The notes under the pieces were generated by a model, which worked only from the letters and a program-made list of their open reading frames with translations, ran no database searches and was not told where the DNA came from. Positions 3,444 to 58,002 of a stretch of 64,000 bases of DNA are shown here, piece by piece. Position 1 is the first letter of the stretch, and every line of letters begins with the position of its first letter. This stretch comes from Onthophagus taurus (taxonomy: Eukaryota; Arthropoda; Insecta; Coleoptera; Scarabaeidae), in the NCBI RefSeq assembly GCF_036711975.1, contig NC_091973.1, forward strand, positions 9,920,001 to 9,984,000, read 5' to 3'. Position numbers and translations under genes: made by a program.

Positions 3444-3599
3444 CCCCCTATTCTTATCCTATCAAACAAATTTTAAAATGATCAAAAAATTAAACACAAA
3501 ACTTTATTTAGAAATAGAAATAAAAAACGCAATGTTACCTTTTATAAAAATACTGGAATATTCAATAAGAGAATATGAATAACTTCGGAAATTAAACAA

Positions 3600-3753
3600 T
3601 TACAATTCATACATTGGGCAATACTTTCTAGTATGAGCACAATCACTGTCTGCATAACAATACGGACACTTCAACGCTCTCAAAACCGGACATGAAACTT
3701 TACCTGTAGAATCTTTCAACGAATGACTTTCATAAAATTCTCGTCCTTCTGAA
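3600..3753 (-). pseudogene. Nanos-type CCHC zinc finger, copy A
   Basis: Nanos proteins are germline translational repressors whose tandem CCHC fingers bind mRNA with Pumilio. This frame holds the end of finger 1, H-x10-C in SHSLKDSTGKVSC, then PVLRALKCPYC and a complete finger 2, C-x2-C-x7-H-x4-C, ending AHTRKYCPMYEL and stop (3600-3602). The spacing matches the family exactly. The first two Cys of finger 1 are absent: upstream, after a frame break at about 3753, related copies read HKWYNFLNGNN where CxxC would be expected. Copy A has lost a short stretch after the finger, changing the last residues. It lies directly downstream of CR1 endonuclease sequence, in the same orientation. Confidence 0.72.
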
Positions 3754-4195
3754 TTTCAAAGAGAATAAGTACAAGAATCTTCTTGGTATGGCTTTTGACC
3801 ACCCGATTACGGTGGAACTGTTTCCATTGAGAAAATTATACCACTTACGTTTAGCTTCCTGTTCTGCGATAGCTTGTCTTTAAAATGCCTCTTTCATTTT
3901 TGTCACGTAATGATCCATTGGTCTTTGTTGCTAATTAAAAAGTAACAACGTGATGGACATTTATTTAGTAGTGTTATGTAGTATTTATTTATGTAGTAGT
4001 TATTTATAACAACATACGAGTCAGGCAGAATGTCAGCTGAAGAAATTCCGGGGTGCAGATTTTCCGCAAAGCAGATCACATCAAAGTCGACATTTAATGA
4101 GTACTGCGCACATTCTGATAATAAAAAGAAAATAAATGGCATTTAATAAATTACAACAAATTGACCTAATAGTTTACATACGCGAAATATTCCTC

Positions 4196-5258
4196 TCGTT
4201 CCCTATCTGAATCAGAAGGGAACACAGAGGGTCTGTCGTACAAAAATTTTACAATCACGGGTCCATATATATTTGTAATTTTTCATAAAATTCTCGTCCT
4301 TCTGAATTTCCTTGGTATGATGGAAACCACCTGTTTACGGTGGAATTGTTTCCATTGAGGAAATTATACCACTTATGTTTAGCTTCCTGTTCTGCGATAG
4401 CTTGTCTTTAAAATGCCTCTTTCATTTTTGTCACGTAATAATCCATTGGTCTAAGGGCCAAGTCCATCTGACCTAGACGCGCGCGGACGTCTTTGTAATT
4501 TTTTTCTTTACCAATCATAGTAAGGGTTCGTTCACAAAGCATCTTTCACCGACGCCATCAATCTTCGTGCCCGGTGATGAGCCCGTGGGCAAGGATTTTC
4601 TCTTCTGGATGCAGGTTGCGAGGAACTACGATGGACCTTGGCTTTGAATTGTCACGGTTGATATGAGGAACACGATAAATGGCGTCTACATCCACACGCG
4701 AAATATCATACCCCACATGAGCAGCAACGGCATCCAACAAATTTTCGTTATTCTTTTCAGGAACACCCTGGATCTCTAAATTGTTCCGGCGGGAATATTG
4801 TTCCATATCATCAACTTGAGCTGTAAGATCAGACACCCGGTCACGCAGTTGTAAGTTTTCGGCTGTTAATTTATCAATAATTTTTATTTTATCCCTTAAC
4901 TCTTTCACAAATTGTTCAAAATCTGATATACGGCCGCTACCGAAGTCGACTGAATGAAGAAGTTAGCTCTTTTTACAACGCAACTCGGATCGCATCTCTT
5001 TAACCAACTCGTAGACGGATTCGAAGGTAATAGCAGGACAGGACGGCGTCGCCGAAGTAGACCCACATGATTTGCGAGAAATAGCGCCTCGTTCTCTTGA
5101 TCTTGAATCATGACATGTCCACGCATCTGCAGACTCCAACGTCTCCTCCGGATCAATGCATTTTGTGTGGAACCAAAGGCAGCAGACCAAGCACTGGACG
5201 CCCGATCTCCTCCCACCACACGATTACACCGTTCGCATAGGTTCATAGGTTCTACCAT
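4196..5258 (-). pseudogene. CR1-type ORF1 protein (PHD finger, coiled coil), copy A
   Basis: RNA-binding first ORF of a CR1-group retrotransposon. The N-terminus holds CERCNRVVG and, in the neighbouring frame, CCLWFHTKCID and DAWTCHDS, a Cys/His pattern of a PHD finger. Next come the heptad region KIIDKLTAENLQLRDRVSDL and the core YSRRNNLEIQGVPE and RVPHINRDNS. The C-terminal motif NYKYIWTRDCKIFVR is displaced by the 208-bp insertion. At least two frameshifts break it. In this copy the 5' end has been replaced at about 5243 by unrelated sequence. Confidence 0.7.
4284..4491 (-). mobile_element. 208-bp chimeric insertion with 12-bp target duplication in copy A
   Basis: The insert is flanked by the direct repeat TTTGTAATTTTT (4272-4283 and 4492-4503). 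It consists of the upstream part of the Nanos segment joined to about 30 bp of CR1 RT coding sequence (revcomp of catctgacctagacgcgcg, encoding RARLGQMDL). Copies B, D, E and F have the uninterrupted target (one TTTGTAATTTTTTTC). Copy C has the identical insert. It interrupts the ORF1 C-terminal motif NYKYIW. The target duplication points to insertion by target-primed reverse transcription. Confidence 0.7.
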
Positions 5259-5332
5259 AGTTCACTAGGTTATTCACTTTTTAACCTAATTATTGCAACT
5301 CAAATCGTTGACTTATTTTTGTTGTTGTTGTA
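5245..5332. other. short flank between copy A and the LOA element
   Basis: About 90 bp, with the LOA-side end carrying ttttt-gttgttgttgta (5316-5332), the candidate LOA target duplication. It may be a remainder of the BEL pol fragment that resumes at 10,945, but it is too short and decayed to prove. Confidence 0.35.
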
Positions 5333-5450
5333 TTTGTTGTTTTTGGCATTTGTTTATTATTATTATTATTATTGCTGCCGGGCTGAGGAGGGCGGCCCCT
5401 CTCGTTACCGCGACCTATAAGATCTATTGTAACTTTAGCCCTCCAATGGT
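5333..5450 (-). other. LOA 3' UTR and (AAT)n tail
   Basis: After the ORF2 stop the minus strand runs through a short GC-rich stretch (GGCCGCCCTCCTCAGCCCGG) into GGCAGC and then seven AAT units. LOA, I and R1 relatives commonly end in such simple repeats and not in poly(A). About 20 bp of non-repeat sequence lies between the tail and the presumed target duplication. Confidence 0.55.
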
Positions 5451-8400: not shown

Positions 8401-9083
8401 ATGTCTGCTACAATGACAAAGCGAATATGCTTGTGATCCGCTAAAGTGATTTCACGCGAAACATGCCAGTTTGCGATTTGCGAACTAAGGCGAGGCGTGG
8501 CTAGGCTTATGTCTAGCACCTCTTGTCGACTCTTGGTAACAAAAGTCGGTACGTTACCTCTGTTGAGGATATCTAAATTTGTAGTTTGAAGGTATTGGTA
8601 AAGATACTCACCCCTTTTGTTTGTGTCTGAGCTGTTCCATGCGAGATGATGTGCATTCGCATCGCAGCCCAGGAGGAGTTGTTTTCCCCTCTTATTGCAA
8701 TATTCGATGAGGTCTTTTACCTCTTGTGGCGGTGGATCGTCCGAATCACCGGGGAAGTATGCCGAGGCTATAATCGCCTCTTGCTTGCCTCCCGGCGTCG
8801 GCAATACCGCTGACATTGCAACCAAGTCCCTAGAGATAAACTGGGTTAATGGTAGGCAGTTTAAAGAGGATTTAGCGAGTATCGCTGCTCGCGCAGGGCA
8901 CTCTCCTCTGTAATAAAATAACTTACCTGCTTTTGTTGATAGTCTTCTGACTATTCCTCCATATACATATGGTTCCTGAATCAACGCAACATGTATGTTG
9001 GGGCTGTGGAAGCCCTTGACCAGCACGTCGGAGGCGCTTTTACAGTGCTGGATGTTGGCCTGGATGAAGCCTACACCCGCCAT
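5451..9083 (-). CDS. LOA-type ORF2: endonuclease, reverse transcriptase, RNase H
   Basis: This 1,210-aa protein nicks target DNA and copies the element RNA by target-primed reverse transcription. Residues 1-235 are an EEP endonuclease (GFIQANIQHCKSASD, GCDANAHHLAWNSSDTN near residue 140). Residues about 470-740 are the reverse transcriptase, with AFIDIEGAFDNT, GCPQGGVLSPLLW and the catalytic YADD at residues 672-675 (7059-7070). RNase H follows with WYTDASK from W939, IFTDSRAALKAI and WWVPGHSNIEGNEKADKLA. The C-terminus has a CCHC knuckle, CRLCNDESETAEHILC, near residue 1150. There are no internal stops, and the length is normal for the family. The ATG (9081-9083) overlaps the ORF1 stop as TAATG, so translation is probably by termination-reinitiation. 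Confidence 0.93.
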   Translation of the reverse strand: MAGVGFIQANIQHCKSASDVLVKGFHSPNIHVALIQEPYVYGGIVRRLSTKAGKLFYYRGECPARAAILAKSSLNCLPLTQFISRDLVAMSAVLPTPGGKQEAIIASAYFPGDSDDPPPQEVKDLIEYCNKRGKQLLLGCDANAHHLAWNSSDTNKRGEYLYQYLQTTNLDILNRGNVPTFVTKSRQEVLDISLATPRLSSQIANWHVSREITLADHKHIRFVIVADMTKQTEFRIPSLTDWCSFCRHIGEEVDEIKTKIESREDLEIASVQLNNLIHSAYESSCPIKHKRAQSNVPWWNKDLENQRVMVRRLYNKVRNSKLEQTWGVYRKALTEYNLAIRKAKRKTWRSFCEGIDNTPTVARLHKILAKDHNTDLGHLCKQDGKYTEDAKESLELLLSIHFPSSKVCPHADADPEVMDITRPSGKVRSTAGNIFTPNRVRWAISNFKPLKSPGGDGILPIFLQKGLEELLPIIISLYIASYSFSYIPTLWRKVKVVFIPKGGRRSNADPKAYRPISLTSFLLKGMEKVIDQYLRNGVLLTNPLHPSQHAYQKAKSTITALHALTSTLEEAIATKEIALCAFIDIEGAFDNTSYESIEKALNAKDIHPSTIKWCIAMLKSRQITASLGGESLTIKALRGCPQGGVLSPLLWCLVVDDLMNILTKNGFKIQGYADDLVITIRGKYDSIITQLMQKALLLTSTWCRSNGLSINPNKIEIVPFTRRRKLQIKAPSIESRTINLKTETKYLGVILDSKLNWNSHLDKVRKKAIMANQICRRLLGRNWGLKPRMAHWAYVAIIRPMVAYASLVWWPKTKHKTAQQQLAQIQRLACLNITGAMRSCPTAALEALLGLTPLHIYIQKEAALSALSLKTVSSLKLMQGNLRGHLEILKDPCLNHLIEIKTDLIPTEYNFNQPYKVIFSSRDDWAKGGPQLKRGALAWYTDASKTVRSGVGMGISGPNSHIKLPLSSDLTIFQAEVLAINFCTALNLQKGQKGASINIFTDSRAALKAIQAYTCGSALIRECTNNLKELARGNDVTLWWVPGHSNIEGNEKADKLAKEAANTPFIGPQPGCGLQKSHLKQIINNWEASKIALRWKELPGHRQAKSMITPSQNKTKEVLCLSKGDLRTLSGYLTGHVPLKYHLFHIGQAEDQTCRLCNDESETAEHILCNCVARGRLRHNVFGKTTLLPTDIKVQDLRTILRFIKDLHLP

Positions 9084-10360
9084 TATTGTTTGGCGGGTGC
9101 AATTTTGGGAGCGGCAGTTTTGCCCTTACCCTTTTTTTCGGAACTAACCTTACCTTTACCCTTCTTGGGGTCCTTGGCGGTTCCGGAAGTTCCAGGTGTT
9201 GGTTCGGGTTCTTCTTTCTGTGGCGTAGGCTTGCCGCTCTTTTGCCTCAGGGTGATTTGCCCGAACTTGTAGCTAACCTTATAGTTTGTTCTTTTAAGGT
9301 TCTCTACGGAGGGATGGTCAACGGACAACGTAAGAAAGGCACTGCTGCCTTCGGTCGTCCTTTTGAGCACCCTCCATTCGTTGGTGTTCAGGCCTTCGTT
9401 TTGGCCTTTAACAATTTTTAGAATGCGGTCTGATTTTTCATCCGCACTGTTGGGGAAATAGGCGTTCATGATAGTCGCTCTAGGTAGCTCCTTTTCATCG
9501 ATAGCCATTAGGGATGCGCCCTCCCATGGTTGTAGGGTTGGAGTTACGGACTTTATCCAGTCCGCTGTTTCCTGGTTTTCGCAGTTGACTACCAGCCATC
9601 CTGCCTTAAATGTGGTGCCGAGGAACTTAGGCTTGATGTCGCCTTCATGTCCCTCGCTAAGGTCCACAATTCTTGAGATGATGACCTCTTGAATAGCCTG
9701 CATTTGGGCTGTTGTGAGGTTCACCTCTGGAAATAGGGAATCTGCAATACCCATCTTTTTACCTTCCAACACCTGCTTGAAGCTGGCAACTGTAGGCTTT
9801 TGCCCCTGCGGAAGATTGCCTCCGCTAGGAGCGCTACGCCTTTCAGTAGCAGCTCGTTTGGTGTCGGGCCCTTTAGGCGTTGTGCTTTCGGAGCGAGGTC
9901 TCTTAGCCCTCTTCTCCTCCTCACTGATAGGCTGTGTGGCCTTTGCTCGGGCTTCCTCGAGAGTCAGCCCTTGTTTGAGCAGCCACCTGAGCCTTTTCCG
10001 TGCTGCACCACATAACTTTTTTTCCTTGACTTGGAGCTTCTCTATGCTCTCCTGAAGTTCGATGGTCGCAGACGTTAAGACGCTGCTGGCACTGGAGGAA
10101 GCGGGGGACAGTGTGATGTCCTCTACGCTTTCACTAGTTGAAGGCGATTTTTGCCTTGATGCGCTCGGAGTTGCATCTACCTCTACTAAAGTTTTTTTGT
10201 TACTCTGTTCCATGAAAGTCCCACGAGTAGCTAGGGAAAGGAGGTCCGCCGCGACAGAGCCCCGCATGCCGCAGTAAGAGGATTTTGTTGAAACTGGAGG
10301 TCCCCAGGTATCCAGAGTCCGCTTATTAGGAACCAAGTATTTCCCTCTTGGCCAACGCAA
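9083..10360 (-). CDS. LOA-type ORF1: nucleic-acid-binding protein (DUF4780-like)
   Basis: A 425-aa protein expected to coat element RNA. Residues 1-190 are low-complexity, rich in Ser, Thr and Lys. The folded region, about 210-365, contains IADSLFPEVNLTTAQMQAIQ, FKAGWLVVNCENQETADWI and LPRATIMNAYFPNSADEK, matching the DUF4780-type core of LOA ORF1 proteins as I recall it. The tail, KKGKGKVSSEKKGKGKTA, is very basic. No CCHC knuckles are present. The stop TAA at 9083-9085 overlaps the ORF2 ATG by two bases. Confidence 0.85.
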   Translation of the reverse strand: MRWPRGKYLVPNKRTLDTWGPPVSTKSSYCGMRGSVAADLLSLATRGTFMEQSNKKTLVEVDATPSASRQKSPSTSESVEDITLSPASSSASSVLTSATIELQESIEKLQVKEKKLCGAARKRLRWLLKQGLTLEEARAKATQPISEEEKRAKRPRSESTTPKGPDTKRAATERRSAPSGGNLPQGQKPTVASFKQVLEGKKMGIADSLFPEVNLTTAQMQAIQEVIISRIVDLSEGHEGDIKPKFLGTTFKAGWLVVNCENQETADWIKSVTPTLQPWEGASLMAIDEKELPRATIMNAYFPNSADEKSDRILKIVKGQNEGLNTNEWRVLKRTTEGSSAFLTLSVDHPSVENLKRTNYKVSYKFGQITLRQKSGKPTPQKEEPEPTPGTSGTAKDPKKGKGKVSSEKKGKGKTAAPKIAPAKQ

Positions 10361-10928
10361 TTAAGCGATAAAAGTCTTCGGCATAAGCTGTTCCACCTTG
10401 ACTTTGGGGTTTTTATTGAGGTTGTCTCCTCTTGATCCGGGCGGTTAAGCCAAGATCCCCCGTGCTGGAAACCAGCACATGGTATGACGGTTGCTGTAAA
10501 CAGCAGCCGGCGCCGTTACCCTTCCGTGCAAGTCCTTAGCCACGACACGACAGCTTGGACAGGGCCGTTGGAGTGCCATTTAGTTAGTGAATTCCCTTAC
10601 CCCAAAGGAGTAGTGGAAGCCACACATCCAGTGGTGCCACGAGGAGGCAGACACTCGATGGAGCGCTTCCTCCACCCCCGCAGAAAGCCACACTAACCCA
10701 CCCTAAAGCAAGCGTGCAAACTATTCTACAAGCAGTGGCTAGTAGCGCTACCATACCCACCTGGCATTTGTTTACAACACTCACTTTACCAACTTCACGT
10801 CACAGTTCGTGGACAATACGGGAGCAATGTGTGGCGCCTTAGAGAAATTATACCCGACCCAATCTCCAATTGAGCTAGGCGAGGACCGTATTGTGTTTGG
10901 TGTTGTAAATGTGTTGGTATTACATATA
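10361..10928 (-). promoter_or_regulatory. LOA 5' UTR / presumed internal promoter region
   Basis: About 570 bp, more GC-rich than the surroundings, between the presumed 5' end and the ORF1 ATG. Non-LTR elements of this type carry an internal promoter in the 5' UTR. I see no convincing initiator motif, and the small open frames here are not supported by family resemblance. Confidence 0.4.
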
Positions 10929-10944
10929 TTTTTTTGTTGTTGTA

Positions 10945-12050
10945 ATTAAGGTGTCACATGGTTCGGGTATGAATTCGTGAGTTGAGGGCAAATATTCTGG
11001 ACAATCGGTAAGCCACGAAATACCCTTCCACCACAATTAAGATGTAATTAATTGGTCGGGAAGAAGACCTCGAGATGCGCAATTAGCGGGATTGTTAGAG
11101 GATGAAACGTGTCTCCAACATTTAGAAGGTAAGATATTCTGAATCTGAGTTACACGGTTTGCAACATGGATTTTCCATCGGTTAGGTACCGAAGAAATCC
11201 AGGTTAAAGTGACCTGAGAATCAGACCAGGCGAAAATCGAATCGAAAGTGATGTTTGGGGATAACGCTTCTTTTATGGTCTGAAATAAATCAGTAAGGAG
11301 AACTGCACCACACAGTTCTAGTCTAGGAATCGAAATAGTTTTCAAAGGAACAACACGTGCTTTTGCACAGACGAAAGAAGTTTGAATATGAGTAGAAGTT
11401 TGATATCGTAAGTATGCGACAGCGCAATACTCAAGTTGAGAGGCATCACAGAATAGATGGAGTTGGATCGACTTGGTGTCTATCGGAACCATTAAACGGG
11501 GCAAAGTCCAAGTAGATAAAGCAGCTAGGCCTTCTTTGAATAATTTCCACGTATCAGAAATTGATGTGGGAGGGTTTTTCATCCCAAGAAAGATTACACT
11601 GCCAGAGATTTTGCATGATTGTTTTTGCTTTAAATGTGCCAGAAAACCAAGCGGATCGTAAATCTGAGCAATTTCTGACAGTATCGAACGTTTAGTACAG
11701 GAATTATGACGGTAGTAGGATCCCAATGAAGACCCAATACTTTGACATAATTTAGTTCACCAGAATCCATTGATATCGGCTTCTGTAAATTAGTTTTTGA
11801 GACAACTTGTAAGAGATTGACACAATTACTCGCTCATGTTCGTAGCTCAATTTCTCCTTTCTTTAATAAAACAATCAATTCTTGTTGTAGATGTAATGCT
11901 TCTTGACAGATTGAGCTCCGGTTACAATATCATCAATATAAACATTATTTTTGAGAACTTCGGCCGCTCTTGGACTGTCATCGGCGTAAAGGTTCGCAAG
12001 TTCTTGAAGTGTACGTAATGCCAAAAAAGGAGATGAGGCAACTATATACG
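10945..12050 (-). pseudogene. BEL/Pao pol fragment: RT active site to RNase H
   Basis: Reading down the minus strand: SPFLALRTLQELANLYADDS, the RT catalytic motif NNVYIDDIVTGAQS (about 11,940), VLGLHWDP, AQIYDPLGFLAHL, then the RNase-H-like part (ORF 11726-11037) with LHLFCDASQ, SIPRLELCGA and WSDSQVTLTWI. It ends with NPANCASRGL, a stop at 11037, LWWKGISWL and the LOA insertion. Several frameshifts separate the parts between 11,730 and 11,930. This subtype (PRLELCGA) matches the plus-strand BEL elements at 33 and 55 kb and differs from the PRLELCAAVDGAHL family at 26 and 45.6 kb. The N-terminal RT is replaced by unrelated sequence at about 12,050. Confidence 0.8.
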
Positions 12051-24685: not shown

Positions 24686-24841
24686 CCCCCTATTCTTATC
24701 CTATCAAACAAATTTTAAAATGATCAAAAAATTTAACACAAAACTTTATTTAAAAATAGAAATAAAAAACGCAATGTTACCTTTTATAAAAATACTATAA
24801 TATTCAGTAAGAGAATATGAATAACTTCAGAAATTAAACAA

Positions 24842-25055
24842 TTACAATTCATTACTTGTGATTACTAGCTGATCCCAACGTGCCATTAGCCAACCTTCTA
24901 AGTTCTGGTAGTGTTTCATTGGGCAATACTTTCTAGTATGAGCACAATCACTGTCTGCATAACAATACGGACACTTCAACGCTCTCAAAACCGGACATGA
25001 AACTTTACCTGTAGAATCTTTCAACGAATGACTTTCATAAAATTCTCGTCCTTCT
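24842..25055 (-). pseudogene. Nanos-type zinc finger, copy B
   Basis: The longest C-terminal reading. An 8-bp loss just after the finger changes KYCPMYK-stop into KYCPMKHYQNLEG and extends the frame to VITSNEL and stop at 24842. Finger 2 (CPYCYADSDCAHTRKYC) is intact, and SHSLKD is present. The upstream frame breaks at about 25,055, as in copy A. Confidence 0.7.
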
Positions 25056-25484
25056 GAATTTTAAAGAGAATAAGTACAAGAATCTTCTTGGTATGGCTTT
25101 TGACCACCCGATTACGGTGGAATTGTTTCCATTGAGAAAATTATACCACTTATGTTTAGCTTCCTGTTCTGCGATAGCTTGTCTTCAAAATGCCTCTTTC
25201 ATTTTTGTCACGTAATGATCCATTGGTCTTTGTTGCTAATTAAAAAGTAACAACGTGATGGACATTTATTTAGTAGTGTTATGTAGTATTTATTTATGTA
25301 GTATTATGTAGTAGTTATTTATAACAACATACGAGTCAGGCAGAATATCAGCTGAAGAAATTCCGGGGTGCAGATTTTCCGCTAAGCAGATCACATCAAA
25401 GTCGACATTGAATGAGTACTGCGCACATTCTGATAATAAAAAGAAAATAAATGCATGGCGTTTAATAAATTACAACAAAATGAC

Positions 25485-25995
25485 CTAATAGTTTACATAC
25501 GCGAAATATTCCTCTCGTTCCCTATCTGAATCAGAGGGGAACACAGAGGGTCTGTCGTACAAAAATTTTACAATCGCGGGTCCATATATATTTGTAATTT
25601 TTTTCTTCACAAAGCATCTTTCATCGACGCCATCAATCTTCATGCCCGGTGATGAGCCCGAGGGCAAGGATTTTCTCTTCTGGATGCAGGCTGCGAGGAA
25701 CTACGATGGACCTTGGATTTGAATTGTCACGGTTGATATTAGGAACACGATAAATGGCGTCTACATCCTCACGCGAAATATCATACCCCACATGAGCAGC
25801 AACGGCATCCAACAAATTTTCGTTATTCTTTTCAGGAACACCCTCGATCTCTAAATTGTTCCGGCGGGAATATTGTTCCATATCATCAACTCGAGCTGTA
25901 AGATCAGACACCCGGTCACGCAATTGTAAGTTTTCGGCTGTTAATTTATCAATAATTTTTATTTTATTCTTTAGCTCTTTCAACAACTTGTTCAA
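25485..25995 (-). pseudogene. CR1-type ORF1, copy B (no PHD)
   Basis: ORF 25995-25633 starts in the coiled coil and retains YSRRNNLEIEGVPEKNNE and RVPNINRDNSNPRSIVV. The C-terminal part follows in other frames (KNYKYIW-type reading and SDSDREREEYFAYVNY). The target site of the 208-bp insertion is uninterrupted here. Confidence 0.65.
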
Positions 25996-28664: not shown

Positions 28665-28898
28665 AACCCCCTATTCTTACCCTATCAAACACATTTTAAA
28701 ATTATCAAAAAATGAAACACAAAACTTTATTTAGAAACAGAAATAAAAAACGCAATGTTAAACCTTTTATAAAAGTACTGGAATATTCAGTAAGAGAATA
28801 TGAATAACTTCGGAAATTAAACAATTACAATTCATTACTTGTGATTACTAGCTGATCCCAGCGTGCCATTAGCCAACCTTCTAAGTTCTGGTAGTGTT

Positions 28899-29150
28899 TC
28901 ATTTATACATTGGGCAATACTTTCTAGTATGAGCACAATCACTGTCTGCATAACAATACGGACACTTCAACGCTATCAAAACCGGGCATGAAACTTTACC
29001 TGTGGAATCTTTCAACGAATAACTTTCATAAAATTCTCGTCCTTCTGAATTTCCTTGGTATGGTGGAAACCACCCGTTTACGGTGGAGTTGTTTCCATTG
29101 AGGAAATTATACCACTTATGTTTAGCTTCCTGTTCTGCGATAGCTTGTCT
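28899..29150 (-). pseudogene. Nanos-type zinc finger, copy C (83 open codons)
   Basis: The longest uninterrupted Nanos reading: QEAKHKWYNFLNGNN, GWFPPYQGNSEGREFYES, the finger, and KYCPMYK-stop at 28899-28901. Ending just after the second finger is normal for Nanos proteins. The His of finger 1 is Tyr here (ESYSLKD), and Arg of PVLRAL is Ile. A TAA at 29151-29153 closes the frame upstream. Confidence 0.72.
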
Positions 29151-29571
29151 TTAAAATGCCTCTTTCATTTTTGTCACGTAATAATCCATTGGTCTTTGTT
29201 GTTAATTAAAATGTGACAACGTGATGGACATTTATTTAGTATTATTAGTGTAGTATTAACAACATACGAGTCAGGCAGAATTTCAGCTCAAAAAATTCCG
29301 GGGTGCAGCCAAGTTTCCGCTAAGCAGATCACATCAAAGTCGACATTTAATGAGCTATTGAATACAATCGGTAGTCTGCCACGAATACTGCGCACATTCT
29401 GATAATAAAAAGAAAATAAATGCATGGCGTTTAATAAATTACGTTTAATTGACTTAATAGTTTACATACGCGAAATATTCCTCTCGTTCCCTATCTGAAT
29501 CAGAAGGGAACACAGAGGGTCTGTCGTACAAAAATTTTACAATCGCGGGTCCATATATATTTGTAATTTTT

Positions 29572-29779
29572 CATAAAATTCTCGTCCTTCTGAATTTCCT
29601 TGGTATGGTGGAAACCACCTGTTTACGGTGGAATTGTTTCTATTGAGGAAATTATACCACTTATGTTTAGCTTCCTGTTCTGCGATAGCTTGTCTTTAAA
29701 ATGCCTCTTTCATTTTTGTCACGTAATAATCCATTGGTCTAAGGGCCAAGTCCATCTGACCTAGACGCGCGCGGACGTC
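29572..29779 (-). mobile_element. 208-bp chimeric insertion in copy C
   Basis: Same insert and same 12-bp duplication (29560-29571 and 29780-29791) as at 4284-4491. A shared insertion shows that A and C descend from one inserted ancestor. Confidence 0.7.
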
Positions 29780-29845: not shown

Positions 29846-30540
29846 TCAATCTTCGTGCCCGGTGATGAGCCCGTGGGCAAGGATTTTCTCTTCTGGATGC
29901 AGGCTGCGAGGAACTACGATGGACCTTGGATTTGAATTGTCACGGTTGATATGAGGAACACGATAAATGGCGTCTACATCCACACGCGAAATATCATACC
30001 CCACATGAGCAGCAACGGCATCCAACAAATTTTCGTTATTCTTTTCAGGAACACCCTGGATCTCTAAATTGTTCCGGCGGGAATATTGTTCCATATCATC
30101 AACTTGAGCTGTAAGATCAGACACCCGGTCACGCAGTTGTAAGTTTTCGGCTGTTAATTTATCAATAATTTTTACTTTATTCTTTAGCTCTTTCAATAAC
30201 TTGTTCAAAATCTGATATACGGGCGCTACAAAAGTCGACCGAATGAAGAAGTTGGCTCTTTTTATAACGCAACTCGGATCGCATCTCTTTAACCATCTCG
30301 TAGACGGATTCGAAGGTAATAGCTGGACAGGACGGAGTCGCCGAAGTAGACCCACATGCTTTGCGAGAAATAGCGCCTCGTTCTCTTGATCTTGAATCAT
30401 GACATGTCCACGCATCTACAGACTCCAACGTCTCCTCCGGATCAATGCATTTTGTGTGGAACCAAAGGCAGCACACCAAGCACTGGACGCCCGATCTCCT
30501 CCCACCACACGATTACACCGTTCGCATATCGACATGATCA
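29846..30540 (-). pseudogene. CR1-type ORF1 with PHD finger, copy C
   Basis: From MSICERCNRVVGG near 30,535 through CCLWFHTKCIDPEETLESVD, the coiled coil and YSRRNNLEIQGVPEKNNENL to GLITGHED (29846). A +1 shift within the PHD finger divides the reading between ORFs 30479-30177 and 30415-29846. Otherwise this is the best-preserved ORF1 of the six. Confidence 0.72.
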
Positions 30541-32989: not shown

Positions 32990-34640
32990 GTATGATATTA
33001 TCGGATTCTTATAACACTTGCCAACATCATTTATTCTGCGATGCTTCTACTATTGGTTATGCTACAGTTACTTATATACGGTGTGAACATTTTGATCAGT
33101 CCATCAAGACCTACTTCATTGGTGGAATGTTTCGTGTAGCACCATTAAAAACCATTTCCATTCCAAGACTGGAATTATGTGGAGCTACACTTTTCGTCGA
33201 CTTTCTCTCAACAATAAAGGATGCTCTTTCATCAGGAATTAAGTTTGAATCAATTACTGTATGGTCTGATTCCAAAGTCATTCTTCGTTGGATTGATTCC
33301 ATTCCTGGAAATTGGAAAATATTCATCGCCAATAGAGTTTCACATATTCAAGACGTGTTACCCGCAGAATCTTGGAGATCTGTTCCATCTAATGAAAACC
33401 CAGCTGATTGTGCTTCACGGGGTCTTTATCCCGATCAACTTATTTCCACATTTTTGATATTTTGCTTACCAAATTGTCCTCATTATCAAAAATAAAACGA
33501 ATCGTATCTTATGTCCTTCGCTTCATTCAAAGAACCCAGAAGAAAAAACGATTTTATTCTTCTGTTGTATCTTCTTTCGAATTACAAGAGTCTCTTCATT
33601 TATTAGTATAGCACGTCCAATCTCAGCACTTTTCTGAAGTCCTTTGCTTTCTCACCAAAAACCAATTACTACCAAAACCAATCAGTAAACTAGCTCCTTT
33701 CTTGGATCGAGATGGGTTACTCAGGGTGGGTGGTCGGTTACATAATGCGGATGTACCATTTGATGAAAAACATCAAGTGTTACTACCAAAAGTGTCGCGT
33801 TTAACTCATCTTATAATAGAAGAAACTCACCGTAAATTTTTGCATCCTGGACTTCGTACGTTTTCAACAATATTGGCTCAACAGTACTGGATTGTGCCTC
33901 CTCGAAGTGCCATCTACCATGTTTTATCAAGATGTATCAAATGCTTCCGTGCCAAACCCAGATCGTATACACCATTCATGGCTGACCTTCCAAAGTTCCG
34001 AGTGACTGAACTCAAAGCATTTAATGTTGTTGGAATAGACTTCGCTTTCCCAATTCTCACCATCATGACAAGAGCCCGGATCCCAGTCTATTTATCTTTA
34101 TCTATCTGTCTTTCCCGTCGAGGTCAATGTTCGGTGTTATTCTCATTCACCCGTTTACGAAATTGTTTCCATTGAGAAAATTATACCAGTTATGTTTAGC
34201 TTCCTGGTCTGCGATAGCTTGTCTTGCTATACGCAAATGCCTCTTTCATTTTTGTCACGTAATAATCCATTGGTCTCTCTGATGGACATTTGTTTAGTAT
34301 TATTAATATAGTATTATGTAGTACTTATTTATAACAACATACGAGTCAGGCAGAATTTCAGCTGAAAAAATTCCCAGTCTATTTATCTACAGCTTCATTT
34401 ATTGCTGCCCTCCGAAGATTTCTTTCCCGTCGAGGTCAATGTTCGATGTTATTCTCCGATCAGGGAACGAATTTTGTTGGTGCTAGCCGCAAACTCCAAG
34501 AACTGGCAGATGTTACTGAAACCACTTTGGGTATTCATTGGAAATTCAATCCATCAGGTGGGCGCCATTTTAACGGATTGGCTGAGGCTGGAATTAAGTC
34601 CATTAAGACACATCTTACAAGAGTGCCGGATCTCTAGCGA
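32990..34640 (+). pseudogene. BEL pol on plus strand: RNase H to integrase (block 1)
   Basis: RNase-H-like region in ORF 32992-33495 (HLFCDASTIGYATVTYIRC, SIPRLELCGATLF, WSDSKVILRWIDS, NPADCASRGL). A tether region follows, then integrase: DRDGLLRVGGRLHNAD, LIIEETHRKFLHPGLRT, VVGIDFAFPI (D), SDQGTNFVGA (D) and HFNGLAEAG (E). The core is interrupted by the 227-bp insertion at 34,148-34,374. It ends abruptly at THLTRVP against an R1-type fragment. It is related to the 13.7-19 kb element and opposite in orientation to the gag next door, so the two are different BEL insertions. Confidence 0.8.
34148..34374 (-). other. 227-bp templated insertion inside BEL integrase
   Basis: Identical by eye to 35,771-35,997 of Nanos/CR1 copy D, same orientation, 1.6 kb away. 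BEL sequence around it is partly duplicated: cccagtctatttatct and tttcccgtcgaggtcaatg occur on both sides, the left copy being shortened. Block 2 has the intact uninterrupted integrase at 55,830-55,920. Confidence 0.8.
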
Positions 34641-35338: not shown

Positions 35339-35495
35339 CCCCCTATTCTTATCCTATCAAACACATTTTAAAATTGAACACAAAACTTTATTTGGAAACA
35401 GAAATAAAAAACGCAATGTTAAACCTTTTATAAAAATACTTTAATATTCAGTAAGAGAATATTAATAACTTCGGAAATTAAACAATTACAATTCA

Positions 35496-35705
35496 TTACT
35501 TGTGATTACTAGCTGATCCCAACGTGCTATTAGCCAAACTTCTAAGTTCTGGTAGTGTTTCATTTATACATTGGGTATTGCCCAATGTATAAATGTTTCT
35601 AGTATGAGCACAATCACTGTCTGCATAATAATACGGACACTTCGACGCTATCAAAACCGGACATGAAACTTTACCTGTGGAATCTTTCAACGAATGGCTT
35701 TCATA
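35496..35705 (-). pseudogene. Nanos-type zinc finger, copy D, disrupted by a hairpin
   Basis: KDSTGKVSCPVL is intact, but CPYC is CPYY and the final KYCP is replaced because a 15-bp perfect inverted repeat, catttatacattggg / cccaatgtataaatg (35,561-35,595), has formed inside the end of finger 2. The finger could not bind zinc. Confidence 0.65.
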
Positions 35706-36179
35706 AAATTCTCGTCCTTCTGAATTTCAAAGACAATAAGTACAAGACCCTTCTTGGTATGGCTTTTGACCACCCGTTTACGAAATTGTTTCCATTGAGA
35801 AAATTATACCAGTTATGTTTAGCTTCCTGGTCTGCGATAGCTTGTCTTGCTATACGCAAATGCCTCTTTCATTTTTGTCACGTAATAATCCATTGGTCTC
35901 TCTGATGGACATTTGTTTAGTATTATTAATATAGTATTATGTAGTACTTATTTATAACAACATACGAGTCAGGCAGAATTTCAGCTGAAAAAATTCCGGG
36001 GTGGAGCCAATTTTCCGCTAAGCAGATCACATCAAAGTCGACATTTAATGAGTTATTGAATACAATCGGTAGTCTGCCACGAATACTGCGCACATTCTGA
36101 TAATAAAAAGAAAATAAATGCATGGCGTTTATCGAAATATTCCTCTCGTTCCCTATCTGAATCAGAGGGGAATAGTCGG

Positions 36180-36840
36180 TTTGTCGTACAAAAATTTTAC
36201 AATCGCGGGTCTATATATATTTGTAATTTTTTTCTTTACCAATCACAGTAAGGGTTCGTTCATAAAGCATCTTTCACCGACGCCATCAATCTTCATGCCC
36301 GGTGATGAGCCCGAGGGCAAGGATTTTCTCGTCTGGATGCAGGCTGCGAGGAACTAAGATGGACCTTGGATTTGAATTGTCACGGTTGATATGAGGAACA
36401 CGATAAATGGCGTCTACATCCACACGCGAAATATCATACCCCACATGAGCAGCAACGGCATCCAACAAATTTTCGTTATTCTTAACAGGAACACCCTGGA
36501 TCTCTAAATTGTTCCGGCGGGAATATTGTTCCATATCATCAACTCAAGCTGTAAGATCAGACACCCGGTCACGCAATTGTAAGTTTTCGGCTGTTAATTT
36601 ATCAATAATTTTTACTTTATTCTTTAGCTCTTTCAACAACTTGTTCAAAATCTGATATACGGGCGCTACAAAAGTCGACTGAATGAAGAAGGTAGCCCTT
36701 TTTAGAACGTAACTCGGATCGCATCTCTTTAACCATCTCGTAGACGGATTCGCAGGACAGGACGGAGTCGCCGAAGTAGACCCACATGATTTGCGAGAAA
36801 CAGCGCCTCGTTCTCTTGATCTGCAATCATGACATGTCCA
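36180..36840 (-). pseudogene. CR1-type ORF1, copy D
   Basis: ORF 36534-36286 has YSRRNNLEIQGVPVKNNENL and ends GLITGHED. A TGA (codon after DLTA, near 36,545) separates it from the coiled coil, and ORF 36826-36617 keeps SVYEMVKEMRSELRSKKG. The PHD finger is lost apart from its last Cys. Confidence 0.62.
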
Positions 36841-42360: not shown

Positions 42361-42454
42361 TACACATTTTCTTTTCATTATTCTGGGGGGGGGGTAATTA
42401 CGCCCCTTTACCCCCCCCCCATATCTACGCCCTTGGAAACGGCTCGAGTCTGTT

Positions 42455-43012
42455 ACCGCTGTGAATGTAAAGCTTAGATCTGCGGTTGATGACCTGACCT
42501 CACGGGTGGAGCATCTGGAGCAATACTCTAGATTAAACAATTTAATCCTGTCTGGGATCCCTGAGAAAAGAGATGAAGATCTTTGTTCTTCATTATCAAG
42601 GATTGGAGAAGTAATAAACTGTCCAGTAACCAAACAAGACGTTGATACAATACACCGTCTTCCGTAACGTTCGAATGCTGGAAATGACACTGGTATTCCT
42701 AAACACAAGAACATTGTGGTTAAATTCCTATCCCGCGGTTTGCGTGATCATTTTCTCACGGCTTCGAAGCGGTACCGCAAAAACAATAATAATGGCTCCC
42801 CTGGTTTAAACATTCCCAACATTACTGAAAGGTTATTCGTCAACGAACATCTAACTGTACACAATACCGCGCTGTTGAAGTCTACTAAATCGGCTTGTCG
42901 TAATAAAGGTTATAAATACGTGTGGTTGAAAAATTGCGTCATTCATGTATGTCGGGATGATAAAGCAAGAGCCATGGTTATCAAGTCTGAAGCTGATTTA
43001 ATAAAACTTTAA
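42455..43012 (+). pseudogene. CR1-type ORF1 fragment
   Basis: LRSAVDDLTSRVEHLEQYSR is coiled coil running into NLILSGIPEKRDEDL, the same landmark as SRRNNLEIQGVPEK in the Nanos chimera. After a TAA at HRLP (42,667) the sense continues in ORF 42716-43012, VKFLSRGLRDHFL to NKGYKYVWLKNCVIHVCRDD. The N-terminal finger is missing. Confidence 0.72.
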
Positions 43013-43046
43013 GTTTCGATCGCTGACATGATCCGGCCGTTCTAAT

Positions 43047-43991
43047 TTGATTCTCTCCAGAGTCATGGCTCTGTCAATGTTGTATCAGAGCGTGCGTGGT
43101 TTGCGCAGTAAAACTGAAACTGCTTACGTGAATTCGTTAAATTGTAATTATGAGGTTATTTGTTTGACTGAGACGAATCTTAATGACTCAATTTATGATG
43201 GGGAGCTGCTTTGCAGTGATTATATTATTTTTAGACGTGACAGAAAGTCTTCGATCTCTCATAAGGAGGAAGGTGGTGGTGTTCTTGTGGCTATACGAAG
43301 AAGCGTTTCAGCTACACCTCTACCAGAATTAACTACCGGTGCTGAAGATTTGTGGCTCTCCGTCCATGTTGGTGATAAAAGAGTGCTCTTGTGTTGTGCC
43401 TACCTTCCCCCCAGTGATATGGTTCCTGTTACTATGTTCCTTCAACAATTACAACGTGTTTGTGAGCTTTATCCTGAAGATACTCTTCTTATAGTGGGGG
43501 ATTTTAACTTACCTAATATTTTATGGCAACAATCGTCTTCCGGGCATCTGGTTCCTATCGGTGGTAATGATGCTCGTTCAAGGGAATTTCTGTTAGCGTT
43601 TTCTTATTGTAACCTTGTACAATATAATAACATTGTTAACTGCAATAGTAGAACGCTCGATTTAATTTTGTGTAATATGGATACGATATGTTCTGTGCGT
43701 TTATGCGATGATCCGCTTGTTGGCATCGATGTCCATCACCCTGCCTTAGTTAGTCCTTGTACCAAATATGTATTTAGTCGAGCTGACTTCAATAGTATTA
43801 AGAGTGCGTTGCTGAGTGTGGACTGGGATGTAATACTTAATAATCGTGATGTTAATCAATGTGTTACCGAATTTTATGACCATGTTAATCGTATTATTTT
43901 TGATAATGTACCACGTGTTGTTGCCAGTAAATACCGTTATCCCAGTTGGTATTCATCCTCTACAATCAAAACCATTAATCTAAGACGTTGA
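43047..43991 (+). CDS. CR1/Jockey-type ORF2, endonuclease domain
   Basis: Open for 314 codons. MLYQSVRGLRSKTETAYV is the start of the EEP domain (usual Q-N changed to Q-S). VICLTETNLND carries the catalytic Glu, DTLLIVGDFNLPNILW the Asp/Asn pair, and SRTLDLILCN and GIDVHHPAL the C-terminal blocks (usual S-D-H changed to V-H-H). The asparagine and histidine-partner changes suggest a weakened or dead nuclease. A stop follows INLRR, before the RT linker. Confidence 0.78.
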   Translation: MILSRVMALSMLYQSVRGLRSKTETAYVNSLNCNYEVICLTETNLNDSIYDGELLCSDYIIFRRDRKSSISHKEEGGGVLVAIRRSVSATPLPELTTGAEDLWLSVHVGDKRVLLCCAYLPPSDMVPVTMFLQQLQRVCELYPEDTLLIVGDFNLPNILWQQSSSGHLVPIGGNDARSREFLLAFSYCNLVQYNNIVNCNSRTLDLILCNMDTICSVRLCDDPLVGIDVHHPALVSPCTKYVFSRADFNSIKSALLSVDWDVILNNRDVNQCVTEFYDHVNRIIFDNVPRVVASKYRYPSWYSSSTIKTINLRR

Positions 43992-45448
43992 TTTCGAGTG
44001 ATTATAATATCTATTTAACTAATATACAATCTGACTTAATTAATCATCCGGCTCATCTTTGGTCATATGCAGCTAATAGAAAACGTGGCAGTGGCGGTGT
44101 ACCGGCTCGTATGGTATATAATGGTGAGTCCGCAACTGAGGGTCACCAGATTGTGGAGTTATTCTCTAAATATTTTAGTTCGGTTTTTATTCATAGTAAA
44201 AATCTGCAACAAGCACGTCAAACTATATTAAATAACTTTTGCCCCTGGTTCTCGGTTGATGATGTTTTGGATGGTCTTACTTCCGTTGATGGTAACTTGG
44301 GACCAGGTCCCGATGGATTACCGGGTATTTTCATTAAAACATGTGCGCCGGAGTTTGCTAAATCACTTTTCATTATTTTCTACCGTTCTCTCTCACAATC
44401 AATTTTCCCCTCTGAATGGAAGAAAGCGTTTGTTCTGCCAATATTTAAGTCGGGTAGTAGAAATATCGTTTCGAACCTTCTCTGATTCAGCAACAACATG
44501 GCTTTCTCCGTGGTCGTCCGGTTGATACTAATCTGGTGTCTTACATCAACTTCATTCAATCATGCATGAACGAAAACTGTCAGGCAGATTCCATTTATAC
44601 GGATTTCTGTAAAGCGTTTGACAAATTGAATCATGCAGCACACCTATCTAAATTAGAAAGGTTTAATATGTCAAATTGGCTGCTATCGTGGTTGGCTTCT
44701 TATATTTCCGATAGATGTCAAGCTGTAAAAATAAATAACTATATTTCTAACATCGCCTTAGTTACTTCTGGTGTTCCTCAAGGAAGTCACTCACAAGTCA
44801 GCAGAAAAAGATACACCGTAGGCTATGATTGCAGACTTGTATCGGAGTACTTGAGAATTACTTCTAGTGTAAAGGATCTGGGTATCGTTTTCGATTCTAA
44901 ATTGCTTTTCACAAATCATTCGAAAGAATTATTCTTTAAGGCTAATAGGATTTTAGGTTACATCATATGTTGATCAAGTTTACATGGCATATGTAAACAG
45001 TGTTCTAAATTATGCATCGGTTGTCTGAAATCCTGTATATGCTGTGTATATTGACCGCCTTGAGGGATTGCAGAAAAGATTTGCTCGATATTTGGCTCAC
45101 AAATTTTACTTACCGTACTATTCCTACGAGCAGAGGTGCACCGTCTTTGGTTTGCGAACGCTGCGCGGACGTAGATCTGCCGCTGATATACTGTTCTTGT
45201 ATAAATTGATCAACGGTTTGCTTGATTCGCCCGAATTTATGAATCATATTTCATTCGCTGTGCCCAGCTATTTTACTCGAGATCAGTGTTTATTTAGATT
45301 GCCCACTTCTAGCACTAATGCGTACTTTAATTCGCCGTTACCTCGTATTATGAATACGTATAATCGTTATTGTCCTGACGTGGACATTTTTGTTTTATCT
45401 TTTAGTACTTTTTGGAATGCTATTTGTAAATTGAACGTGTGTCAATAA
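43988..45448 (+). pseudogene. CR1/Jockey-type reverse transcriptase, internally deleted
   Basis: ORF 43988-44485 covers the thumb-linker and first RT motifs (GPGPDGLPGIFIKTCAPEFA, WKKAFVLPIFKSG). After a gap, ORF 44536-44973 has YTDFCKAFDKLNHA and TSGVPQGSH, then skips the YADD region directly to KDLGIVFDSKLLFTNH. ORF 45044-45448 is the C-terminal domain (DRLEGLQKRFARYLAH, LRGRRSAADILFLYKLING). It could not be active. Confidence 0.8.
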
Positions 45449-50707: not shown

Positions 50708-50916
50708 CCCCCTATTCTTATCCTATCAAACACATTTTAAAATTATCAAAAAATGAAACACAAAACTTTATTTAGAAACAGAAATAAAAAACGCAATGTT
50801 AAACCTTTTATAAAAATACTGGAATATTCAGTAAGAGAATATGAATAACTTCGGAAATTAAACAATTAAAATTCATTACTTGTGATTACTAGCTGATCCT
50901 AAGTTCTGGTAGTGCT

Positions 50917-51168
50917 TCATTTATACATTGGGCAATACTTTCTAGAATGAGCACAATCACTGTCTGCATAACAATACGGACACTTCAACGCTATCAAAAC
51001 CAGGCATGAAACTTTACCTGTGGAATCTTTCAACGAATGACTTTCATAAAATTCTCGTCCTTCTGAATTTCCTTGGTATGGTGGAAACCACCCGTTTACG
51101 GTGGAATTGTTTCCATTGAGGAAATTATACCACTTATGTTTAGCTTCCTGTTCTGCGATAGCTTGTCT
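50917..51168 (-). pseudogene. Nanos-type zinc finger, copy E (83 open codons)
   Basis: Same length as copy C, with SHSLKD intact (His present), CPYCYADSDCAHSRKYCP (Thr to Ser) and the normal MYK-stop ending. All four Cys/His ligands of finger 2 and the second half of finger 1 are present, making this the best-preserved copy. Confidence 0.73.
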
Positions 51169-51559
51169 TTAAAATGCCTCTTTCATTTTTGTCACGTAAT
51201 AATCCATTGGTCTTTGTTGTTAATTAAAATGTGACAACGTGATGGACATTTATTTAGTATTATTAGTGTAGTATTAACAACATACGAATCAGGCAGAATT
51301 TCAGCTCAAAAAATTCCTGGGTGCAGCCAAGTTTCCGCTAAGATCGCTAACAATCGGTAGTCTGCCACGAATACTGCGCACATTCTGATAATAAAAAGAA
51401 AATAAATGCATGGCGTTTAATAAATTACAACAAATTGACTTAATAGTTTACATACGCGAAATATTCCTCTCGTTCCCTATCTGAATCAGAGGGGAACAGT
51501 CGGTCTGCCGTACAAAAATTTTACAATCGCGGGTCCATATATATTTGTAATTTTTTTCT

Positions 51560-52223
51560 TTACTTTAGGATTTTCTCTTCTGGATGCAGGCTGCGAGGAA
51601 CTACGATGGACCTTGGATTTGAATTGTCACGGTTGATATGAGGAACACGATAAATGACGTCTACATCCTCACGCGAAATATCATACCCCACATGAGCAGC
51701 AACGGCATCCAACAAATTTTCGTTATTCTTTTCAGGAACACTCTGGATCTCTAAATTGTTCCGGCGGCAATTTTGTTCCATATCATCAACTTGAGCTGTA
51801 AGATCAGACACCCGGTCACGCAATTGTAAGTTTTCGGCTGTTAATTTATCAATAATTTTTATTTTATCCCTTAACTCTTTCACAACTTGTTCAAAATCTG
51901 ATATACGGCCGCTACCGAAGTCGACTGAATGAAGAAGTTAGCTCTTTTTACAACGCAACTCGGATCGCGTCTCTTTAACCATCTCGTAGACGGATTCGAA
52001 GGTAATAGCTGGACAGGACGGAGTCGCCGAAGTAGACCCACATGCTTTGCGAGAAATAGCGCCTCGTTCTCTTGATCTTGAATCATGACATGTCCACGCA
52101 TCTACAGACTCCAACGTCTCCTCCGGATCAATGCATTTTGTGTGGAACCAAAGGCAGCACACCAAGCACTGGACGCCCGATCTCCTCCCACCACACGATT
52201 ACACCGTTCGCATATCGACATGA
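51560..52223 (-). pseudogene. CR1-type ORF1 with PHD finger, copy E
   Basis: ORFs 52165-51938 (CCLWFHTKCIDPEETLESVD), 52101-51880 and 51883-51560 (RDKIKIIDKLTAENLQLRD) cover the same parts as copy C. The core motif is changed to QNCRRNNLEIQSVPEKN. The end is missing after LHPEEKIL because of the deletion noted for this copy. Confidence 0.68.
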
Positions 52224-56091: not shown

Positions 56092-56450
56092 TGAGAATCT
56101 TGTGAATTCTTGCACTGCTGGGTGTGTCTTTCACTACCTCACAGAACCTCCTCCAAGACTCTCTTTTTGCCTTACGTATATTTTTAGTGTAATTCGTTAG
56201 AGCTTGTTTATATTTCCCCGATTTACCTAATGTCTCGGTCCGGTTAAAAAGCCTCCGCATCTCTTGTCTTTCGGAGCTAAGAGATTCGACACCAGAGTGT
56301 GCCCCGATTATTACTTTTCACCATCAGTGGACTGCTACTAACGAATTGCCACAAAGATCTACACCGTTGCTATTTCAATTTGATCACACGGTAGCGATGA
56401 CACTAGTTAGGTTATCTGCAAGGCAACTCTTAAACAGATCCCAAGTTAGT
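56069..56450 (-). pseudogene. R1-type ORF2 linker fragment, block 2
   Basis: Contains MRRLFNRTETLGKSGKYKQA and ESWRRFCEVVKDTPSSARIH, as in block 1. The endonuclease half and the 3' end of the adjoining Nanos copy have been deleted together, fusing tcccaagttagt to tacattacttgtg at 56,450. Confidence 0.65.
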
Positions 56451-56517
56451 TACATTACTTGTGTTACTAGCTGATCCCAACGTGCTATTAGCCAACCTTC
56501 TAAGTTCTGGTAGTGTT

Positions 56518-56668
56518 TCATTTATACATTGGGCAATACTTTCTAGTATGAGCACAATCACTGTCTGCATAACAATACGGACACTTCAACGCTATCAAAA
56601 CCGGACATGAAACTTTACCTGTGGAATCTTTCAACGAATGACTTTCATAAAATTCTCGTCCTTCTGAA
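56518..56668 (-). pseudogene. Nanos-type zinc finger, copy F
   Basis: SHSLKD, KVSCPVLIALKCPYC and AHTRKYCPMYK-stop (56518-56520) are intact. Upstream the reading breaks at about 56,668, because this copy has the longer gaatttcaaagacaataagt variant shared with A, B and D. Confidence 0.7.
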
Positions 56669-57190
56669 TTTCAAAGACAATAAGTACAAGACTCTTCTTG
56701 GTATGGCTTTTGACCACCCATTTACGGAATTGTTTCCATTGAGAAAATTATAACAGTTATGTTTAACTTCCTGTTCTGCGATAGCTTTCTTGCTATATGA
56801 AAATGCCTCTTTCATTTTTGTCACGTACTAATCCATTACGTCTTTGTTGTTAATTAAAAAGTAACAACGTGATGGACATTTGTTTAGTATTATTAATATA
56901 GTATGTAGTATTATGTAGTACTTATTTATAACAACATACGAGTCAGGCAGAATTTTAGCTGAAAAAATTCCGGGGTGGAGCCAAGTTTCCGCTGAGCATA
57001 TCACATCAAAGTCGACATTTAATGAGTTATTGAATACAATCGGTAGTCTGCCACGAATACTGCGCACATTCTGATAATAAAAAGAAAATGAATGCATGGC
57101 GTTTAATAAATTACAACAAATTGACCTAATAGTTTACATACGCGAAATATTCCTCTCGTTCTCTATCTGAATCAAAGAGGAACTGTCGGT

Positions 57191-58002
57191 CTATCGTACA
57201 AAAATTTTACAATCGCGGGTCCATATATATTTGTAATTTTTTTCTTTACCACGCGAAAAAAGCGACTTGTTCTTAGAAGTAAGCGTTCGTTCATCTTTTA
57301 CCGACGCAATCTTCATGCACGGTGGTGAGCCCGAAGGCAAGGATTTTCTCTTCTGGATGCAGGCTGCGAGGAATGAATACCTTTTAAGACGACCACAAAA
57401 ACGCGCTACGATGGACCTTGGATTTGAATTGTCACGGTTGATATGAGGAACACGATAAATGCCGTCTACATCCCCACGCAAAATATCACACCCCACATGA
57501 GCAGCAACGGCATCCAACAAATTTTCGGTATTCTTTTCAAGAACACCCTGTATCTCTAAATTGTTCCGGCGGGAATATTGTTCCATATCATCAACTCGAG
57601 CTGTAAGATCAGACACCCGGTCACGCAATTGTAAGTTTTCGGCTGTTAATTTATCAATAATTTTTATTTTATCATTTAGCTCTTTCGTAACTTGTTTAAA
57701 ATCTGATATACGGCCGCTACAGAAGTCGACCGATTGAAGAAGTTAGCTGTTTTTACAACACAACTCGGATCGCATCTCTTTAACCATCTCGTAGACGGAT
57801 TCCAAGGTAATAGCCGGACAGGACGGAGTCGCCGAAGTAGACCCACATAATTTGCAAGAAATAGCACCTCGCTCTCTTGATCTGCAATCATGACATGTCT
57901 ACGCATCTGGAGACTCCAACATCTCCTCCGGATCAATGCATTTGGTGTGGAACCCAAACTCCCCACCACACGATTACATCGTCTGCACATTGTCATGACC
58001 AC
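57191..58002 (-). pseudogene. CR1-type ORF1, copy F
   Basis: The PHD region is shortened: the CCLW motif is deleted between RVVG and the TPNAL reading in ORF 58002-57676. ORF 57628-57191 holds YSRRNNLEIQGVLEKNTENL and, after a local insertion, reaches KNYKYIWTRDCKIFVR in one frame, the only copy in which the C-terminal motif is still in frame with the core. Confidence 0.66.

Follow-up and report, generated by a model that had tools for sequence, protein, structure and literature searches.

A putative CR1-nanos pseudogene chimera multiplied within the X chromosome of the beetle Onthophagus taurus, and a separate array of open relatives on a satellite-rich scaffold

Examination of a 64,000-nucleotide stretch of the Onthophagus taurus assembly (C8:9920001-9984000; hereafter, the window) identified six segments related to the 3' half of a nanos-like gene, each located behind a CR1-type sequence. 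These segments are probably the remains of a dead CR1-nanos pseudogene chimera that was multiplied locally on the X chromosome, with an array on another scaffold, C4, representing a sister lineage that stayed open and was amplified separately. Under this scenario, an intronless nanos-like gene would have contributed its 3' half, which became joined behind a CR1-type 5' part consisting of ORF1 and the start of the endonuclease; the fused piece would then have lost its reading frame, and tandem and segmental duplications of the broken chimera would have produced at least 27 finger copies within C8:9.64-10.85 Mb. The sister lineage would have remained open and, in a separate amplification, would have reached 14 near-identical copies on the satellite-rich C4, where the encoded protein lacks one of the zinc ligands of finger 2. 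Nanos, a regulator of the germline, is deeply conserved; amplified, partly disabled derivatives that are X-linked and possibly Y-linked would be an unusual fate for it.

The 83-codon stop-to-stop frame at 28899..29150 (minus strand), in which a Nanos-type zinc finger had been recognized from the sequence alone, passes the profile check, scoring 60.6 bits with Pfam zf-nanos, whose curated cut-off is 27. For the copies at 24.8 and 35.5 kb, the scores are 67.8 and 49.4 bits, respectively, and because all three of the six window copies that were scanned match at 49-68 bits, the similarity is not due to chance. A sequence search of PDB chains at E<=0.001 returned three Nanos sequences only. Finger segments were located for all six copies that had been proposed, all on the minus strand, and three additional partial nanos copies were detected near 4.3, 29.6 and 34.2 kb. 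The original prediction, which ascribed the same set of motifs to every copy, is sound at its core and partly confirmed, with corrections in the details: H-x10-C is found in five of the six copies, the His being replaced by Tyr in the named 28.9-kb copy itself; C-x2-C-x7-H-x4-C is likewise found in five and broken at 35.5 kb; the wording KDSTGKVSCPVL is present in five copies and AHTRKYCP in four; and AATAAA occurs within 300 nt past the stop in five of the six.

All six window copies are broken: none has both CCHC fingers complete, and none has a start codon. When each finger frame is read from stop to stop, the CxxC of finger 1 falls outside the open frame in every copy; the alignment shows that the 28.9- and 50.9-kb copies have deleted it and that the remaining four (3.6, 24.8, 35.5 and 56.5 kb) have it on the far side of an in-frame stop. 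The window sequence corresponds to the 3' half, with internal deletions, of the gene that is seen in open form on C4. The nanos-derived segment of the 28.9-kb copy spans 28782..29235 (coding 3' half and the start of the 3' UTR; finger at 28911-29051), and its 83-codon frame combines the deletion of the CxxC and the His to Tyr replacement in finger 1 with an intact finger 2. The other segments, also on the minus strand, are at 3557..3964 (finger 3615-3755), 24799..25269 (finger 24920-25060; the top Pfam score of the three scanned), 35443..35897 (finger 35598-35726; finger 2 lost), 50823..51253 (finger 50929-51069) and 56448..56881 (finger 56530-56670; tail not found). In other parts of C8, numerous copies of the array have a single stop within the domain.

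Because the finger-1 CxxC is out of frame and no Met precedes the finger in frame in any of the six copies, the window copies are, as judged from their sequences, unable to make a Nanos domain, and the X fragments would make no protein, although the array may still be transcribed or give rise to small RNA. The suggestion that such a repeat expresses part of a germline regulator accordingly finds no support in the window copies, all of which lack the start and finger 1. Given that the finger 2 pattern is complete in five of the six window copies, one could conceive of the X copies as encoding a working mini-Nanos that consists of finger 2 alone; the lack of an in-frame Met in all six, along with the requirement of Drosophila Nanos for both fingers that is stated in PMC4995099, makes this extremely improbable.

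CR1-type ORF1 and the start of the endonuclease are found upstream of each of the six copies and in the same orientation, as had been proposed. In the 28.9-kb copy, the endonuclease start lies at 29258..29431, upstream of the nanos segment, and is preceded by an ORF1 fragment at 29846..30415 (a 189-aa open frame), next to which a frame at 30177-30512 encodes a PHD-like finger just below the cut-off (all on the minus strand). The endonuclease starts and ORF1 parts of the other copies, in the same strand, are located at 4008..4138 and 4561..4902 (3.6 kb), 25323..25462 and 25636..25977 (24.8 kb), 35956..36129 and 36289..36630 (35.5 kb), 51276..51417, in two pieces in different frames, and 51566..51877 (50.9 kb), and 56930..57103 and 57309..57682 (56.5 kb). 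The PHD-like finger of the chimera ORF1 scores 23.6 bits, slightly under the Pfam cut-off of 24, and its baculovirus-FP-like end is weak (18.4 bits, with the cut-off again at 24); from these below-cut-off domains and the general features of CR1 ORF1, we take this frame to be of the CR1 type. Of a full CR1 ORF1 and ORF2, the sequence preceding the nanos piece yielded just ORF1 and the endonuclease start. The finger frame is not continuous with the endonuclease frame, so that the domain does not appear here as a normal part of a CR1 ORF2.

Two of the additional partial nanos fragments, at 29561..29738 and, in the same arrangement, at 4281..4450 (both on the minus strand), are located inside ORF1; by eye, each is bounded on both sides by a 12-bp word and has a leader that resembles another element in the window. 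The third partial copy is at 34148..34274 (minus strand), within a stretch, 34148-34374, that is identical to 35771-35997. On the plus strand, the window also contains a decayed CR1-like element at 42437-45448, with ORF1, endonuclease and reverse-transcriptase-like frames that are 37-38% like those of the chimera where compared.

The chimera is confined to a single region of C8. The zf-nanos profile has 48 matches in the genome, of which the C8 array accounts for 27 and C4 for 14; 6 more, all partial, lie in other parts of C8, and C11 has 1. The 27 array finger matches all fall within C8:9.64-10.85 Mb, in a left group of 14 and a right group of 13, and all have one orientation. The 124-base tail, which comprises the AATAAA and the common 3' end (28667..28790, minus strand, in the 28.9-kb copy), also has 27 matches in the genome, all within the same interval, and the genome search did not find it on other elements. 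The same holds for ORF1 copies of at least 74% identity, the best match elsewhere being at 70% (150 of the 361 candidates scored). All seven tested pairs of left and right units are 99.65-99.94% identical over 2.5-3.2 kb at distances of 856-879 kb, although in one of them the high identity extends over just 2.5 kb, with an added 0.6-kb piece at 97.4%. The remaining comparisons within the array show 84-99% identity, and the unit stretches inside the window are about 78-98% alike. The DNA source of the assembly was one male, as given in PMC10942260, and because the X is single in a male, the near-identical pairs should not be two haplotypes.

Because one 1.2-Mb region of the X holds all these matches and all seven tested pairs are 99.65-99.94% identical, we infer that most of the copies arose by duplication rather than by retrotransposition. 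The shared 3' end with AATAAA occurs in copies with three different flanks, the 5' ends are variable and a CR1-type ORF1 lies upstream, as could be expected of a non-autonomous CR1-like element that captured a nanos 3' end and moved by retrotransposition. A few such events are possible, given that some units share the 3' end and not the flank. As an explanation of the whole family, such an element is nevertheless quite unlikely: neither the array-type finger and tail nor, among the candidates scored, a close ORF1 copy occurs outside the interval, the blocks come in near-identical pairs, the tail is not shared with other elements, and no target-site duplications were seen by eye at the 24.8-kb unit. 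Of the original prediction, the fusion, in which CR1-type ORF1 and endonuclease sequence precedes a Nanos-type domain, and its subsequent multiplication hold up, whereas amplification as a dispersing repeat is not supported, with 27 of 27 tails and 27 of 27 fingers lying within 1.2 Mb.

The apparently local multiplication of what looks like a dead chimera took place on what we conclude to be the X chromosome, because the voltage-gated sodium channel (VSSC/para) has its best match on C8 (97% over 78 residues), this gene being X-linked in two beetles according to PMC11318108, and the O. taurus X is named 'Scaffold 8' in the assembly paper (PMC10942260). Scaffold rank was dropped as a pointer to the X, C8 being 7th in size and 8th in file order, and para was used instead. 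The 19 listed kinase matches on C8 (one gene family; 129 of the 413 candidates scored) are all located below 7.5 Mb, so C8 beyond this point, the window included, looks like a gene-poor part of the X. In the window, positions 4001-12000 have a G+C content of 0.43-0.48, compared to about 0.36 in the stretch upstream and 0.31-0.37 in the stretch downstream.

The surprise of this analysis lies outside the window, in a 14-copy, disabled-looking nanos derivative on C4, a scaffold that is a candidate for sex linkage. C4:1984228-2542755 contains an array of 14 near-identical nanos-like genes spaced at about 25-72 kb, with a 222-aa frame that is intact and has a start codon in all 14. In the 120 kb examined, which include four of the 14 copies, the repeat is head-to-tail, with a unit of about 27 kb that is mostly about 99.5% identical between copies and in which the nanos-like frame is, by eye, the sole sizeable open frame recognized as non-transposon. 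The C4 protein matches zf-nanos with 72.7 bits (cut-off 27) over profile positions 1-53 of 54. In all 14 copies, the first Cys of finger 2 is replaced by Tyr, at the position that corresponds to Drosophila C354 when counted along the Nanos PDB alignment from the first finger-1 Cys, numbered C319. In Drosophila Nanos, C319Y or C354Y fully blocks repression and eliminates the ternary complex with Pumilio and RNA, according to PMC4995099. Because one zinc ligand of finger 2 is lost, the C4 protein is predicted to be no longer a normal Nanos repressor; hence normal Nanos activity would be expected neither of the window copies nor of those on C4.

In a midpoint-rooted tree of 14 sequences, the X array forms a clade (support 100) that is joined to C4 (100), with the decayed X and C11 copies placed apart (100). 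Over the 112 codons compared between C4 and X, with three ambiguous changes excluded, the C4 branch has 9 nonsynonymous and 8 synonymous changes; this nonsynonymous count is below the neutral expectation, with P between 0.010 and 0.074 depending on the assumed neutral synonymous share. On the X side, the raw counts of 17 nonsynonymous changes, 3 synonymous changes and 2 stops are reduced to 7 nonsynonymous and 1 synonymous by dropping 14 changes at codons 83-93 that adjoin a deletion and were removed upon inspection, and the contrast between C4 and X does not reach significance (Fisher P 0.18). These comparisons give a weak signal that may reflect purifying selection on the C4 lineage. Among the C4 copies themselves, the six variable sites, five nonsynonymous and one synonymous, are as expected without constraint. 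The flank of the C4 gene was considered as a pointer to its origin and set aside: apart from repeats common to many contigs, the 3' flank occurs on C4 only (40 of the 286 candidates scored).

Searches of the whole assembly for a canonical nanos with the Pfam profile, the Drosophila finger and the AHTxKYCP motif (one mismatch allowed) returned only this nanos-like family, the motif having 39 sites, 14 on C4 and 25 in the C8 array. This result could reflect a gap in the assembly, divergence, introns interrupting the finger or outright loss. Two extra relics were detected at C11:3.92 Mb and C8:21.06 Mb. As a possible parental first exon, the C11 match (69% over residues 2-90) was rejected, as its sequence stops partway through finger 1; the half-domain matches found at C8:14.46-15.39 Mb, considered as parental exons, proved upon translation and alignment to be frameshifted, intronless pseudogenes. 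The searched protein databases yielded no beetle nanos, only the O. taurus protein itself, which is listed as an 'uncharacterized protein', and among the best 120 of 534 matches to a consensus query there was no beetle nanos, the named ones coming from fish, amphibians, sponges and hemichordates, with many unnamed. Among the listed literature on nanos and O. taurus, transposable elements and X/Y drive, neither a nanos-CR1 chimera nor a sex-linked nanos array appears in the titles or the opening parts of the abstracts, and a word search of the available text of PMC12902608 gave no mention of nanos.

C4 is a 2.69-Mb scaffold with satellite wherever it was sampled outside the array. A satellite word has 11,431 sites in the assembly; among the matches listed (C1-C4), 14 are scattered on C1-C3 and those that follow are on C4. 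The 153-base and 152-base satellites of C4 also occur on C12 (2 of 2 samples), C14 (2 of 3) and C8 (4 of 14, with the 153-base satellite in 1 and the 152-base satellite in 3), and the 153-base satellite was found at 7 of 20 contig starts, three of the 20 reading N. Because they are common to C4, the X and further small contigs, the satellites cannot separate X from Y and were abandoned as a discriminator; gene density was uninformative for placing C4, with none of 132 kinase matches where about 1 would be expected (129 of the 413 candidates scored). C4 thus resembles heterochromatin and may belong to the X or Y. C12, C14 and the small contigs that carry the satellites of C4 and the X may likewise be heterochromatin of the Y or X.

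The alternative with the broadest implications is a sex-chromosome conflict, in which C4 would be Y-linked and supply male germ cells with a Nanos-derived protein, and small RNAs from the X array would silence C4, or the reverse. Several observations fit this possibility. The family is multicopy on the X, where the array has 27 zinc finger copies, and also on the satellite-rich C4, whose 14 copies form a clade of their own; the nanos-like frame stands out as the only sizeable one in the 27-kb unit recognized by eye as non-transposon; and X/Y co-amplification is an established pattern, as described in PMC6690552 and PMC10618873. The assembly, moreover, derives from one male, and its Y is not identified in the literature consulted, PMC12902608 describing earlier assemblies, including that of O. 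taurus, as agnostic about the Y. Against it, C4 may be X heterochromatin because the same satellites occur on the X, and no hairpin could form among the array copies because all 27 have one orientation. On balance, we consider the conflict unlikely. A fuller version, in which C4 is the O. taurus Y or part of it, the finger-2-disabled protein of its 14 copies interferes, by competition or as a poison, with the normal Pumilio-Nanos pathway of male germ cells, the X array is a source of silencing RNA, and the ordinary nanos has diverged, been lost or failed to be assembled, is still more doubtful.

On the preferred reading, that of a dead, locally multiplied chimera, the lesson is a plain one, namely, that motifs of germline genes in repeats can be fossils. 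The C4 array marks a candidate Y scaffold, and the family offers a specific candidate case of conflict between beetle sex chromosomes; should C4 be the Y, this would be a case of X/Y co-amplification of a nanos derivative.

The family can be compared with several known systems. It resembles Nanos (zf-nanos, PF05741; Drosophila 5kl1 and 5kl8, zebrafish 3alr) in the spacing and wording of the fingers and differs in that the X copies are without an in-frame finger-1 CxxC and a start codon, whereas C4 has Tyr at the equivalent of C354. With the CR1-group non-LTR retrotransposons, the chimera shares an ORF1 with a sub-cut-off PHD-like finger and FP-like end, followed by an endonuclease start; unlike them, it keeps only this start of ORF2 before the nanos piece, and its tail is unique to the array and confined to one X region. 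Conflict between X and Y is exemplified by Stellate/Su(Ste) and by co-amplified genes in mice and flies. As in Slx/Sly, S-Lap1/GAPsec and Stellate/Su(Ste), the O. taurus family has one amplification on the X and another on a scaffold that is a candidate for sex linkage; in contrast to these systems, its X side is non-coding and C4 is only a candidate Y. Seed beetles reportedly have Y-linked TOR copies (PMC10414808); the gene is a different one and C4 is only a candidate for sex linkage, but the likeness is that a conserved gene varies in copy number on a sex chromosome of a beetle.
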